DNA of 64,000 bases, from positions 744,001 through 808,000 of the forward strand of contig CP167917.1 of NCBI GenBank assembly GCA_041504365.1, given 5' to 3'. Position 1 is the first letter of the stretch. Each line of letters opens with the position of its first letter. This stretch comes from Dryocola sp. LX212. GTDB lineage: Bacteria > Pseudomonadota > Gammaproteobacteria > Enterobacterales > Enterobacteriaceae. The translations under genes were made by a program, and so were the position numbers. The notes under the pieces are model-generated. The model made no database searches. It was not told where the DNA came from and saw only the letters and a program-made list of their open reading frames with translations. This document shows, piece after piece, positions 32,344 through 37,320 of this stretch.

Positions 32344-32450
32344 TTCTCGGTCTGAAGGTTTCCACGCTGTTTTTCGTTGTCTTTACTGCGATACTTACCC
32401 TATACGCGACGAGGGTGCTGGCTTTCCCTCAGCAGGCAGAGGAAAACACC

Positions 32451-32813
32451 ATGGAATATGAATTTTTGCGCGATGTCACAGGACTTGTGAAGGTGCGTAT
32501 GTCGATGGGCCACGAAGTGGTGGGCCACTGGTTCAACGAGGAAGTAAAAGACAATCCGGGCCTGCTTGATGAAGTGGAACAGGCAATGGCGTCGGTGAAG
32601 GGCAGCGAGCGCCAGTGGCAGACCATCGGGCATGAATACACCCTGTGGCTTGACGGCGAAGAAGTCATTATCCGCGCCAACCAGCTGGAGATTTCGGGCG
32701 ACGAGATAGAAGAAGGAATGAGCTATTACGACGAAGAGAGCCTGTCATTCTGCGGAGTGGAAGATTTCCTGCAGGTCATGAATGCCTACCGGGAATTTAT
32801 CGCTGGCAGATAA
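32451..32813 (+). CDS. yacL: UPF0231 family protein YacL
   Basis: YacL is a small conserved enterobacterial protein of unknown function. The 120-residue acidic product begins [20 protein letters not shown] and contains the near-invariant [12 protein letters not shown] and [18 protein letters not shown] stretches. The ATG at 32451 gives the family length; an upstream in-frame start adds 12 residues. No signal peptide or membrane segment is present, so it should be cytosolic. It converges with the FKBP-like gene across a shared hairpin. Confidence 0.93.
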
Positions 32814-32818
32814 GTTAC

Positions 32819-32840
32819 ATCAGGCCCTGACGGGCCTGAT
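32819..32840. terminator. Hairpin between convergent yacL and the FKBP-like gene
   Basis: ATCAGGCCC-TGAC-GGGCCTGAT is a perfect 9-bp stem between the two stop codons. An A/T-rich tract follows on the plus side, so it most clearly serves yacL and perhaps both genes. Confidence 0.75.
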
Positions 32841-32842
32841 AA

Positions 32843-34438
32843 TTATTTCTTTTTTCCCACTTCCACTATGCGAACGCTATAGGTCATGGTAGATCCCGGT
32901 GGGATTTTAGGCGGCACGCCTTTGCTACCATAGGCAAGTTCCGGTGGCACAACGATCGTTACGCTACCGTGGTCTTCCAGTCGCTCAAGAGGCGCGCGGA
33001 AGATAGCTGGATAATCGCTCAGCGGCTGCGACCAGACTTTTCCTGCAACTTCCATATCGCTCACTACGGTGCCGTCAGTCAGGGTTTCTTTCATTACTAC
33101 CGTTACCGTATCGTCGGGTTTAATTTCCCCTTTACCGGCATAATCTATTCGACTGTAAACACCCTCTTTAAACTGCACATTTTTTTGTTTTTTAAACTTT
33201 TCGAGGTATTTTTTTCCTTCGTTTAATGCCTGTTTTTCAAGTTTATTCAGATTATTAAAAACTTCTTCGGTTGCTGCGAGCAAGGCTTTTTTGCGGGTTT
33301 GCTCATCCAGCGCTACGTTATCTGCGAAAACGTCTTCAATTCCTTTTAATACGGCAACGCGATCCATTTTAACACCCTGGATTTCCCGGGTTAATAACTC
33401 TTGTAAAACATCATCACCAAGCGATACGCCAACCGAGTAAGCCTGCTGCTGCGGGATCTTATCCAGATCGAGTTTAGGGGGATGGCTGCCAGCTATTTTT
33501 TGTAGTTCTGCCAGTTTTGCCGTTAAGGTCGCAACGCTATTGGTTTCTACCTTCAGAGCTTCTTTTTCCCGAGCAAACAGAGAGTTGAGCGTCTCTAGAT
33601 CGGCGGCCAGCTTTTGCTTCTCGGCCATCGCGGTGTTGAGTGATTCCTGCAGAGTTTCTTTTTCCTTACCTGACTGGTTTTTGATTATTTCAAGCTCAGC
33701 GGCCAGCTTTTGCTTCTCGGCCATCGCGGTGTTGAGTGATTTCTGCAGAGTTTCTTTTTCCTTACCTGACTGGTTTTTGATTGTTTCAAGCTCAGCGGCC
33801 AACTTTTGCTTCTCGGCTGTTACGGCGTTGAATGAAGTCTGCAGGTTTTCTTTTTCCTTACCTGACTGGTTTTTGATGGCTTCAAGCTCGACGGCCAATT
33901 TTTGCTTCTCGGCCATCACGGCATTAATTGAGGCCTGCAGGCCTTCTTTGTTTTGGCTTAAATGGGCTTTCGTTTCTTCAAGCTGATTGGCAATTTTTAT
34001 CTTGTCAGCCATCAGTTCATCAAGCGAAGCCTGCAGCCTGCTTATTTTCGCAAGCAATACTTGTTCTTTCTTTAGTGCCACTTCAGCCGCAGCAGATTTA
34101 TTTTCCAGCTGCGCCTGCAGTTGATTGATCTTTTCATCTTTACGCGTTAACCAACCCTGTTGACTATTTTCTCTTTTGCCCGGTTGAGCGGAGGGATTCT
34201 GGCGGACTAAGGGTTTTTTTTTCTTTTCAACAGGTTTTGTTTCCGTTGCATCATGAATGTTATTATTACGCGCATAATTAAGTATGGCTGGAATGGCATT
34301 GTCATCATTGATCTGTGAGGTAATACTCACAAGCGCATCATCTTCTTGCGCGACAACGGCACAAGACACGATCAGCAAACCTGTCAAAATCGCAGATAAA
34401 GAAAAAGATGTTGGCTTCAGCTTGCCGAGAACATTCAT
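32843..34438 (-). CDS. Exported coiled-coil protein with FKBP-type domain
   Basis: The 531-residue product has a hydrophobic export signal near residues 10-30. It includes a possible lipobox IVSC with Cys26; signal peptidase I cleavage after AVVA is the alternative. Then come a basic linker, a long coiled coil (about 100-318) built on a 32-residue unit, an FkpA/Mip-type dimerisation domain (about 324-420, QQQAYSVGVSLGDDV) and a C-terminal FKBP domain (about 425-527, PPELAYGSKG and PPGSTMTYSVRIVEV). Several residues of the prolyl isomerase pocket are replaced, so catalysis is doubtful. The ATG overlaps the upstream lipoprotein stop (ATGA). I recall nothing here in E. coli K-12. The function is not known; a periplasm-spanning scaffold or chaperone is inference. 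Confidence 0.85.
   Translation of the reverse strand: MNVLGKLKPTSFSLSAILTGLLIVSCAVVAQEDDALVSITSQINDDNAIPAILNYARNNNIHDATETKPVEKKKKPLVRQNPSAQPGKRENSQQGWLTRKDEKINQLQAQLENKSAAAEVALKKEQVLLAKISRLQASLDELMADKIKIANQLEETKAHLSQNKEGLQASINAVMAEKQKLAVELEAIKNQSGKEKENLQTSFNAVTAEKQKLAAELETIKNQSGKEKETLQKSLNTAMAEKQKLAAELEIIKNQSGKEKETLQESLNTAMAEKQKLAADLETLNSLFAREKEALKVETNSVATLTAKLAELQKIAGSHPPKLDLDKIPQQQAYSVGVSLGDDVLQELLTREIQGVKMDRVAVLKGIEDVFADNVALDEQTRKKALLAATEEVFNNLNKLEKQALNEGKKYLEKFKKQKNVQFKEGVYSRIDYAGKGEIKPDDTVTVVMKETLTDGTVVSDMEVAGKVWSQPLSDYPAIFRAPLERLEDHGSVTIVVPPELAYGSKGVPPKIPPGSTMTYSVRIVEVGKKK
33563..33946 (-). repeat. Four tandem 96-bp units inside the FKBP-like gene
   Basis: Four direct in-frame copies encode residues 165-196, 197-228, 229-260 and 261-292, each with the core AEKQKLA. 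The spacing is exact: the GGCCA-C/A-TTTTTGC-type core recurs at 33605, 33701, 33797 and 33893. A weaker fifth copy precedes them (residues 133-164). Adjacent units are nearly identical in DNA, so recombination could change the number without a frameshift. Confidence 0.95.
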
Positions 34439-34947
34439 CGTACGGCGTTCTCCCCGCGCGCAACCAGACTGTCCATTAACTCTTTATCAATGTCAGCACA
34501 GAGTTTTGCTGCTTTAAATTGATACATTGAATCAACGGCCTGGCGGGTCGATGTGGCGACCTGATCGCGTACCGAATTATATTGTGATGCGGCGCTGACC
34601 AGTGAATTAAAGCTAGTGTTATATTTGTAAGCCTGCTTTGCGTTGATCTGTTTAAGCGAATCCAACGCCTTTCTGCAGTAGTTAATCTTTGCCTGCTCGC
34701 TATTTTTTGCCTGATTAGACTCCGGCTGTACAACTGACTGCACTGCTGGTACCGGTGAATGTGTTGACGTTGACGTTGACGTTGACGTTGACGTTGACGT
34801 TGACGTTGACGTTGACGTTGACGTTGACGTTGACTTTGACGTTGCCGGGGGAGGCGTTTTCTTGTGTGAAATAAGGCTGCATCCAGCCAGTAACAGAATC
34901 GCCACGGGCAGCAGTCGAATTAAAGGTTTAGTGTCCAATATGTTCAT
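34435..34947 (-). CDS. Lipoprotein with Ser-Thr repeat linker
   Basis: The 170-residue product has a lipoprotein signal with lipobox LLAGC (Cys23) and Ser at +2, so outer-membrane sorting is expected. After a Lys/Pro stretch comes a linker of 12 Ser-Thr pairs (residues 39-62). A Pro/Val/Gln-rich spacer and a helical domain of about 90 residues follow, with two cysteines (INYCRKAL and AKLCADID). No family recognised. It overlaps the FKBP-like gene by ATGA, so the two are translated together. The ribosome-binding site is weak and the gene looks richer in A+T than its neighbours. Confidence 0.85.
   Translation of the reverse strand: MNILDTKPLIRLLPVAILLLAGCSLISHKKTPPPATSKSTSTSTSTSTSTSTSTSTSTSTSTHSPVPAVQSVVQPESNQAKNSEQAKINYCRKALDSLKQINAKQAYKYNTSFNSLVSAASQYNSVRDQVATSTRQAVDSMYQFKAAKLCADIDKELMDSLVARGENAVR
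34763..34840. repeat. Hexanucleotide microsatellite (GTTGAC x12)
   Basis: Twelve perfect GTTGAC units run from 34763 to 34834, followed by the variant TTTGAC. On the coding strand they encode the Ser-Thr linker of the lipoprotein. Changes in number by slipped-strand mispairing would lengthen or shorten the linker in two-residue steps without breaking the frame. Confidence 0.97.
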
Positions 34948-34963
34948 TCCAGTGATCGATGAA

Positions 34964-34991
34964 ATTATCCCTATAAATATCAGTGTAACAA
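34964..34991 (-). promoter_or_regulatory. Candidate promoter for the lipoprotein/FKBP operon
   Basis: On the minus strand TTGTTA (34991-34986) and GATAAT (34969-34964) are 16 bases apart, 17 bases before the start codon. The leader would be very short. Prediction by eye only. Confidence 0.35.
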
Positions 34992-35052
34992 ATTAGGCTT
35001 TTGGGTATATCCCCGGAGGATTATTTCAGAATCCTTCTGCTGACATTGTCTT

Positions 35053-35090
35053 AAAAAAACCGACAGTTTATTGCCGGCTTTTATAGATAT
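35053..35090 (-). terminator. Terminator after speD
   Basis: On the minus strand CCGGCA-ATAAAC-TGTCGG (one G-U pair) is followed by seven T residues, about 20 bases after the speD stop. It separates the speE-speD operon from the lipoprotein operon. Confidence 0.8.
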
Positions 35091-35109
35091 TTGAGCGTAG
35101 TCAAAGGAA

Positions 35110-35904
35110 TCAGATTGCCGGAATATTGCGTCCGTAATAAATTTCGCGCATCTCTTTCCAGAGCATATCCGTAATTGCCTTGCGTTCCTCTTCGCCCAAA
35201 TCCTCCGGACGGGTGTGGAACATGTAGTGCTTCAGATCGAACTCTTTCAGCAGCATTTTAGTGTGGAAGATGTTCTCCTGATAAACGTTCACATCCATCA
35301 TGTCGTACAGTGCTTTCATGTCCCGGGACATAAAGTTCTGAATTGAGTTAATCTCATGATCGATAAAGTGTTTTTTTCCGTGCACGTCGCGGGTAAAGCC
35401 GCGTACGCGGTAATCCACGGTCACGATATCGGACTCAAGTTGATGAATAAGGTAGTTCAGCGCATTTAGCGGTGAAATGACTCCACATGTTGACACCTCT
35501 ATGTCGGCCCGGAAGGTACATAATCCACCTTCGGGGTGGCTTTCCGGATAGGTGTGTACGCAGATGTGACTTTTATCCAGATGGGCGACAATGGCGTCCG
35601 GCAGCGGGCCGGGATGCTCGGACTGGTCAATGCTCTGCGGATCGACGGGTTCTTCGCTCACCAGCACGGTCACGCTCGCGCCCTGCGGCTCGTAGTCCTG
35701 GCGGGCGATATTCAGGATATTCGCGCCGATTATCGAGCAGGTTTCGCTGAGGATCTCCGTCAGACGATTGGCGTTATACAGCTCGTCGATGTAGGCGATG
35801 TAGCCGTCCCGCTCCTCGGCGGTCTTGACGTAGCAGATGTCGTAGATACAAAAACTCAGGCTTTTAGTCAGGTTGTTAAAGCCGTGCAGCTTCAGTTTTT
35901 TCAA
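35110..35904 (-). CDS. speD: S-adenosylmethionine decarboxylase proenzyme SpeD
   Basis: SpeD decarboxylates S-adenosylmethionine to give the aminopropyl donor for spermidine. The 264-residue proenzyme cleaves itself between Lys111 and Ser112 (in [16 protein letters not shown]), turning the serine into the pyruvoyl cofactor. [19 protein letters not shown] contains the catalytic Cys region. Length and sequence match E. coli closely. It is the second gene of speE-speD, 14 bases after speE. Confidence 0.98.
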
Positions 35905-35918
35905 TTTTTATCACCTCC

Positions 35919-36785
35919 TCAGGATGACTGGTTCACCAGCGCATCCAGCAGATACTGCGGCAAAGCAAAGGCTGCCGTATGGATTGCCGGATTGTAATAG
36001 CGGCACTTTATCCCGGCTTTATGGAATCGCGCCTGGAGCGTTTCCGTGGGCAGATGGCGCAGTGCTGGGTTATCGGTCGCCCAGGCAAAGGTCATGATAC
36101 CGCCGAAGTAGGTCGGAATGGCCGCCTGGTAAAAGCTCACGTCGGCAAAGTAATGGCTAAGTTTACGGTGGCTATCCAGCGCTTCGGCCTGCTGCAGGAA
36201 ACAGACGCCGTTCTGCGCCACAAAAATCCCGCCTGGGTTCAGGCAGCGCTTGCAGCCTTCATAAAACGCGGAGGTAAACAGGCTTTCACCCGGCCCGATG
36301 GGATCCGTACAGTCGGAGATAATGACATCAAAGGTTTGTGCGGTCTGGCTGACAAAGTTAACGCCGTCGTCGATGATCAGATTAAAACGCGGGTCGTCAT
36401 AACTGCCAGCGTTATGATTGGGCAGGTATTGGCGACAGAATGAGACCACATCAGCATCAATTTCCACCATCGTGATGGATTCAACGCTCTGATGGCGAGT
36501 CACTTCTCGCAGCATCGCACCGTCACCCCCGCCGATGATCAGCACATGCTTTGCCTGCCCGTGAGCCAGCAGCGGTACGTGGGTCATCATCTCATGATAG
36601 ATAAACTCGTCGCGCTCGGTGGTTTGCACTACGCCATCCAGCGCCATCACGCGGCCAAAAGCTGCATTCTCGAAGATAACCAGATCCTGGCAATCGGTCT
36701 TTTCGCGGTACAGGACGTTGTTCACGGCAAAGTACTGACCAAACTCGTTATGCAGCGTTTCCTGCCACACTTTTTTCTCGGTCAT
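35919..36785 (-). CDS. speE: Spermidine synthase SpeE
   Basis: SpeE transfers the aminopropyl group from decarboxylated AdoMet to putrescine. The 288-residue enzyme has the methyltransferase-like fold with the nucleotide motif [15 protein letters not shown] near residue 80, the acidic MVEIDADVV, and the catalytic [15 protein letters not shown] region near 155. I chose the ATG at 36785, spaced six bases from GAGGTG. An in-frame GTG three codons upstream is part of that ribosome-binding site. Confidence 0.97.
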
Positions 36786-36892
36786 GATGGACACCTCGTT
36801 GGTAACACTCTTGCAAAATTAGCGCAACATCATAGCCAACAACAGCCGTGGGTGCACGGCTGTTATTTCATCAAAGAGGCAGGAAAGGCGGG

Positions 36893-37240
36893 TTACTTAA
36901 CGTAGGCGAGCAGGCTTAACGAGTCACGGGCCAGCGATTTGCATTTGTTTGCCGTCGGGATGGCGATGCCGCTCAAATCTCGGTAGCTGTCCTCGCCGAG
37001 CGCTTTCATATTAAAGCTATCGTAGTTGCTCAAATCCCACTGGTTCTGCTGAGCAAAAAAGACCAGCGCGCGGCGAATTTGTCCGTTTGGGAGATTCTGG
37101 TAGCCGCAATCATTTTTTAAAAAAACAAATACCGCAGTAAGATCGGCCATATCTTCCGCTTCAGATTCGCTAAGGGCCTGACTGCTGGTAGAAAATGCCA
37201 GCAAAACACCCAACATTAATGCCTTAACTCCCGTCTTCAT
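36893..37240 (-). CDS. yacC: Conserved exported protein YacC
   Basis: YacC is a small periplasmic protein of unknown function found across enterobacteria; it has been related to the PulS/OutS pilotin family. The 115-residue product has a signal peptide ending in SSQALS. A highly conserved mature part follows (DMADLTAVFVFLKNDCGY, LARDSLSLLAYVK at the end) with two cysteines. I chose the ATG at 37240 for agreement with the E. coli length; an in-frame GTG four codons upstream is possible. Confidence 0.92.
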   Translation of the reverse strand: MKTGVKALMLGVLLAFSTSSQALSESEAEDMADLTAVFVFLKNDCGYQNLPNGQIRRALVFFAQQNQWDLSNYDSFNMKALGEDSYRDLSGIAIPTANKCKSLARDSLSLLAYVK

Positions 37241-37320
37241 TACACCTACCACTTTTTATCAGATAAGAAACGTTAACACAGTTAAATAGGGCACGACGAT
37301 ATTTATTCTTTGCTGCAATC

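Follow-up and report, generated by a model that had tools for sequence, protein, structure and literature searches.

Chaperone-usher fimbriae are assembled by a textbook pathway, usually described as a periplasmic chaperone working with an usher. Here we consider two genes that may add to this pathway: LIP, encoding a lipoprotein, and FK, encoding an exported coiled-coil protein of FKBP-like type, which lie together in a 64,000-nucleotide stretch of Dryocola sp. LX212 (contig CP167917.1, positions 744,001 to 808,000; hereafter the window). The described proteins closest to FK are FkpA (E. coli, 1q6h) and Mip (Legionella, 1fd9), which resemble it in carrying FKBP_N followed by FKBP_C, in probable export, and in giving the best sequence and fold matches. 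FK differs from both in having a long rod in front of these domains, a lipoprotein partner gene, and an isomerase pocket that is replaced in 77 of 78 members. LIP can be compared with the pilotins PulS and AspS, small lipoproteins that also have a helical domain and a pair of conserved cysteines, but it yielded no family or fold match to them. A third comparison is with the accessory genes of P-type fimbriae (papJ): FK and LIP of E. coli and Salmonella share clusters with papJ-like, usher, chaperone, and subunit genes, whereas FK is neither a pilin nor a PapD-type chaperone by Pfam and the window copy is without such neighbors. We found no account of the pair in open full texts, as judged by titles and the openings of abstracts, which does not imply its absence from print. 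We tentatively read the window pair as a chromosomal orphan of an accessory module linked to fimbriae, one that would act as an outer-membrane-anchored, non-catalytic assembly factor, a reading whose chances we place slightly below even.

Both genes are on the minus strand, as are all features of theirs given below. FK (531 amino acids (aa), 32843..34438) and LIP (170 aa, 34435..34947) share an ATGA stop/start overlap at 34435..34438 and match the profiles of their relatives at E 5.6e-93 and 2.1e-36, respectively. The two open reading frames (ORFs) stand where the original prediction, made from the letters of the DNA, had placed them, between yacL (ORF 32415..32813, plus strand) and speD (35110..35904, minus strand). 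It had expected no such genes there in E. coli K-12, in agreement with our searches: the region matched in 5,375 of 5,426 E. coli genomes, none of which had a single place spanning 80% of the query. Among the matches listed, the E. coli flanks were at most 342 bp apart in 9 of 10, and in strain R32_14_1F a tetratricopeptide gene lay between them, at a distance of at most 1,710 bp. The predicted A+T richness of the pair was also borne out (G+C of 0.452 for FK and 0.476 for LIP versus 0.546 for the 64-kb window). This is a property of the window copy and no constant feature across the family, given that the two genes of Klebsiella pneumoniae ATCC 13883 have G+C of 0.545 and 0.551, compared to 0.560 for their locus. 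Scans for promoters (6 sites versus 4.1 expected) and terminators (10 versus 5.0 expected, several of them accounted for by the hexamer array described below) were not used.

LIP and FK form an unnamed two-gene module of Enterobacterales. At E ≤ 0.001, the LIP profile matched 106 of 392 genomes of the family (part of them weakly). It also matched 14 of 295 in an order-wide draw, four of which were outside the family (one strong match, at 4.3e-22, and three weak ones); in a class-wide draw of 274 it matched, at 1e-8, only the window's own genome. A tblastn search of a plasmid collection returned 23 records with LIP, of which 19 were typed as conjugative and one was evidently a chromosome. For the FKBP domain, the 80 best of 94 loci were kept as relatives; these came from Buttiauxella, Klebsiella, Kluyvera, Serratia, Erwinia, Pantoea, Edwardsiella, Citrobacter, and others. 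For the analysis of neighborhoods, 120 regions were fetched (two of them, L057 and L059, selected by FK), with weaker LIP profile matches left out, and the 137 pairs were reduced to 115 distinct ones by merging identical LIP 3′ ends.

FK was directly downstream of LIP on the same strand for 71 of 127 LIP ORFs (45 with a 4-bp overlap), and LIP was directly upstream at 65 of the 80 FK loci (46 with the overlap); 77 of the 115 distinct pairs overlap by 4 bp. These counts support the earlier proposal of an accessory envelope operon whose products belong together. Adjacency across genomes, which the original prediction had named as a check, held for most FK loci, with 15 of 80 FK loci and 56 of 127 LIP ORFs not directly paired. 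For the LIP count, FK ORFs had to reach 300 aa and lie no farther than 260 bp from LIP, which excludes clusters with an intervening gene. In some of the unpaired LIP cases, FK is upstream with fimbrial genes between (L090, L091, L094, and L143), in some it is short or broken (L104, L123, and L140), and many LIP stand alone. The unpaired FK loci include five ORFs that start at a contig end, three broken copies, one whose LIP lies at 271 bp and so just beyond the cut-off of 260, and one that is a fragment on a contig of 4.3 kb. The nearest relatives of LIP and FK were identical in 59 of 116 cases, and in 80 the nearest relative of FK ranked within the first three for LIP, a result consistent with joint descent, if not decisive for it. 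In K. pneumoniae strain 176 (L093 5857-9254), LIP is present and FK survives only as short hypothetical ORFs followed by an ISKpn18 element, while the ATCC 13883 copy is intact. The many LIP relatives without FK (L042, L053, L055, and others) may be a separate lipoprotein branch; one of these, L053, adjoins flagellar fli genes by eye.

Relatives of the pair sit inside chaperone-usher clusters more often than expected by chance. Clustering of the neighbors within 6 kb of the 115 pairs placed fimbrial subunits near 48, ushers near 40, and chaperones near 39; 32 pairs had a GerE (LuxR-type) gene nearby, with a median distance of 13 bp. By profile, an usher was found within 6 kb of 42 of the 115 pairs, compared to ~4.5 (3.9%) expected from the 337 usher matches in 30 genomes, an enrichment of about ninefold. 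Within those 30 genomes, 17 of 42 pairs (window pair included) had an usher within ~9 kb versus 2.0 expected, and the highest value in 200,000 random draws was 11, under a test that presumes uniform placement and ignores relatedness. The usher link was seen in 8 of 17 genera. Assigned to sites by the same profiles and distance, 51 of the 115 pairs had a fimbrial gene, 15 were at the yac site, 6 were near cysS, and 43 were elsewhere, with a LuxR-type gene at 10 of these last. Since only six or seven sequences went into each of the usher, chaperone, and subunit profiles, undercounting of fimbrial context is likelier than overcounting.

The arrangement is tight where it occurs. E. coli MS1657 carries, in order, two subunits, an usher, a chaperone, a pilus-assembly fibrillin, a subunit, FK, another subunit, a PapB-like regulator, LIP (annotated as a hypothetical protein), a further hypothetical protein, a PapI-like regulator, and DsbA, and its FK overlaps the fimbrial subunit genes on either side by 8 and 4 bp. 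A similar arrangement is present on an E. coli IncI1 plasmid and in E. coli NCTC8623. On two Salmonella plasmids as well, FK is flanked by subunit genes, with LIP behind. At the DNA level, the E. coli plasmid form matched 14 of 5,426 E. coli genomes, 2 of them across at least 80% of the query. A second pair, divergent from the first, occurs in the window's own genome on a contig of 52,765 bp, and genes for a DsbA-like protein, a chaperone, subunits, and an usher are found within ~7 kb of it; a 15.9-kb query from this contig had no near match among plasmids. This second pair is followed by an 824-aa exported protein (L095 4433-6907) that appears by eye to be inverse autotransporter-like with Ig-like repeats.

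Several observations weigh against the fimbrial reading, for the window copy and for the family. Profiles detected no usher, chaperone, or subunit in the 64-kb window, and the genome's seven Pfam usher matches all fall outside it, with the closest chromosomal one ~165 kb off. The main objection is that no recognized fimbrial gene was found within 6 kb of 64 of the 115 pairs, including the window copy; in addition, 9 of 17 genera show no usher link. To these may be added the premises of the enrichment test, the LIP ORFs that have no FK directly downstream, and the absence of the common form of an N-terminal FK motif (see below) from many divergent members.

Pairs away from fimbrial genes would be expected under the strongest rival, in which LIP and FK are a general periplasmic holdase or outer-membrane quality-control pair that fimbrial clusters carry as a fellow set of accessory envelope genes and whose orphan sites show its own role. 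The stable orphan clade made up of the 16 yac-site rows (support 100) fits this idea, as does the fact that FK's nearest relative, FkpA, is a general periplasmic chaperone. The overlapping and interleaving of FK with subunit genes, the roughly ninefold enrichment near ushers, and the GerE gene that adjoins many pairs all argue for a more specific partnership, and we consider a general role unlikely, though still deserving of weight.

A tree of FKBP domains, made by a quick method and subject to long-branch warnings, bears on how the window copy reached its site. All 16 rows from the yac site fall on a single branch (SH-aLRT 100), in which the window groups with G005, a genome of the same genus, and with Buttiauxella (support 84). 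On this tree, the window copy thus stems from one old arrival between yacC and yacL, with both fimbrial and non-fimbrial relatives outside that clade. Across the whole tree, explaining the fimbrial label takes 14 changes, of which well-supported branches force at least 9. Site orders (window 32813-37252 compared with L041, L096, L119, L203, L286, L288, and L289) vary: yacC-LIP-FK-speE-speD-yacL in Klebsiella; yacC-LIP-FK-yacL, with no speED there, in Buttiauxella, Kluyvera, and G005; and yacC-speE-speD-LIP-FK-yacL in the window. Genomes G005, G024, G277, G343, and G170 have speE nowhere at E 1e-60. In four further species of the genus to which the window belongs, speED is present and the pair is missing from this position; this FK is found in 2 of 6 genomes of the genus. 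The gap between speD and yacL looks like a variable spot. By eye, it holds regulator-like, lysozyme-like, and other genes in G002 (L287 7130-10995) and a four-gene metabolic-type cluster in two Klebsiella-group genomes (L133 12986-16996; L212 12549-16580). The nearby yacC is annotated as 'YacC family pilotin-like' in a Klebsiella record.

The C-terminal part of FK was correctly anticipated to be an FkpA/Mip-like dimer domain followed by an FKBP fold, and the term 'FKBP-like' is apt. FKBP_N, of the dimerization type (residues 330-422, 33173..33451), scores 39.4 bits against a Pfam cut-off of 22, and FKBP_C (residues 437-524, 32867..33130) scores 35.3 bits against 21.1. The closest solved structure by sequence is FkpA 1q6h (E 6.2e-28), and FkpA and Mip are also the top Foldseek matches to the FK model (FkpA at E 4.5e-16). 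With both domains above their cut-offs, this fold match, and relatives labeled as FKBP-type isomerases in public records, FK might be taken for an active periplasmic isomerase, an FkpA paralogue on a long stalk. The pocket makes this very improbable. We assessed nine positions (FKBP12 numbering) mapped through seven FkpA-like sequences, so labeled by their likeness to 1q6h, all of which keep all nine residues. Among 78 FK members, by contrast, 73 keep one, four keep none, and one keeps two, with the counts for very divergent members being alignment-dependent. Tyr82 is retained in 73 of the 78 and is the sole pocket residue of the window FK (1 of 9). Around Asp37, the window FK aligns with FkpA without a gap, so the loss of this residue is no alignment slip. 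In addition, the FkpA equivalog model gives FK only 95.6 bits against a cut-off of 215, and a separate FkpA-like gene exists in the same genome (G000:C1:366898-367530). A 19-member alignment has an invariant Asp-Met pair just past Asp37 and further invariant residues elsewhere in the domain. The FK head is thus probably a conserved, non-catalytic FKBP domain (a pseudo-FKBP). Neither this loss nor the link to fimbriae was part of the original prediction.

The N-terminus of FK has the features of an exported protein. A probable signal peptide (residues 1-30, 34349..34438), as read from the sequence, has a basic n-region, a hydrophobic core, and an AVVA|Q-type site. The window FK also has a lipobox-like IVSC; since such a site occurs in the first 45 residues of just 5 of 116 members, signal peptidase I seems the likelier enzyme to cleave FK. 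Further on is the motif NAIPAILNYAR (residues 47-57, 34268..34300), with a short predicted helix at 51-58 in a low-confidence stretch of the model. Of 116 FK members, 69 carry the pattern P[AVQ][ILVM]L within their first 110 residues, compared to 5 of 508 later segments of the same length. A broad form of the motif is present in four FK whose LIP is elsewhere in the cluster (L090, L091, L094, and L143); in the three FK judged that are without LIP (L235, L263, and L265), too few to carry weight, it is absent or degraded. At L257/L112, a LIP-matching frame lies at G190:C1:81820-82143.

Between the motif and the FKBP domains, AlphaFold2 predicts a helical rod with one short break (residues 88-317, 33488..34177), close to the coiled coil of ~220 residues originally claimed. 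The model (15 sequences; mean pLDDT 71.5, pTM 0.40) has helices at 88-220 and 225-317 and pLDDT ~90 across most of residues 400-500. As at least one shuffle gave higher power than the periodicity peak of 3.54 residues, assignment of this ~230-residue rod rests on the structure prediction. The rod contains 96-bp repeats (32 residues; 3.3 copies, 90% matches by TRF) at 33603..33921. A lipoprotein anchor combined with a long predicted helix, which would measure ~34 nm if 230 residues were fully helical, fits the envelope spacer or tether suggested by the original prediction, a structural element that would link the outer membrane to another envelope layer by its coiled-coil length. Among the 115 distinct pairs, FK ranges from 301 to 1,566 aa (median 569). 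This approximately fivefold spread disfavors a rod of fixed length, as the longest would exceed any periplasm and could not stand across it. The rod grows by repeats, and two FK of one genome (G007; L051 7461-9920 and L052 6652-8613) have long tandem Pro-/Lys-rich repeats ahead of the coil. We therefore regard a fixed-length, envelope-spanning tether as improbable.

The partner lipoprotein has, as read from the sequence, a lipobox (LLAGC) with Cys23, followed by Ser at position +2. It was described earlier as having no recognized domain, and it has no match above the curated cut-offs of Pfam or NCBIfam, matches near E 0.001 all being below them. In the AlphaFold2 model (20 lipoproteins), the N-terminal half is of low confidence and a three-helix domain (residues 79-169, 34441..34713) follows, with pLDDT ~95 from residue 91 onward. 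C23, C91, Y123, and C150 are invariant in all 20 aligned sequences, and the three invariant cysteines suggest a lipid anchor plus one disulfide. A lipobox was recognized in 103 of 116 members (the 13 without one by pattern include several with a doubtful start codon), and Asp at +2 occurs in none of the 103. Under the +2 rule of lipoprotein sorting, this absence of Asp fits an outer-membrane location, which we infer for LIP.

A hexamer array (34763..34844; 13.7 copies, 97% matches by TRF; GTTGAC on the plus strand) codes for a Thr-Ser tract of the window LIP that was not seen in nine aligned relatives. The 6-base unit preserves the frame; therefore, slippage would alter the length of the LIP linker and not the frame, and the array is possibly strain-variable in length. 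Two other identities for LIP were considered and not adopted. A pilotin keeps some likelihood but drew no family or fold support: Pfam gave nothing over cut-off in a table of E-values up to 0.1, Foldseek gave no match at E 0.001 or better, and the best VIA-align result (Z 8.7) was a designed bundle, a measure that is uninformative for helical bundles. For a role in anti-phage defense, PADLOC was empty for three of four proteins and marginal for the window LIP (E 0.00099); PHROGs likewise gave a marginal match to the window LIP (E 0.00095) and none to the other three. We judged these marginal matches to be low-complexity noise, and phage records searched for LIP gave no match.

Returning to the fimbria-linked assembly factor, these features can be arranged into a possible mechanism. 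LIP would be anchored in the outer membrane and present its three-helix domain, on which FK may dock through its short N-terminal motif. FK would dimerize via the coiled coil and FKBP_N, with the rod giving reach and avidity, and its FKBP-fold heads, lacking the isomerase pocket and bearing another conserved surface, could bind a subunit or the usher. In fimbrial operons, FK would then most likely be a non-catalytic periplasmic factor, acting as a holdase or an adaptor and delivering a subunit or the usher to the outer membrane. A fimbrial client for the window copy is suggested by its relatives only; this copy could serve fimbriae encoded elsewhere in the genome. More broadly, the family may be an unnamed accessory machine of the chaperone-usher pathway, in which LIP holds an FK of hypervariable length and the FKBP heads form a non-catalytic clamp, distributed over chromosomes, conjugative plasmids, and orphan copies; this wider proposal is speculative, and we think it has appreciably less than an even chance of being right.

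If this reading is true, a conserved two-gene module would add a component to chaperone-usher fimbriae, including the P-type clusters of E. coli. The FK family would likewise supply naturally occurring FKBP domains whose enzyme pocket has been swapped for another conserved surface.

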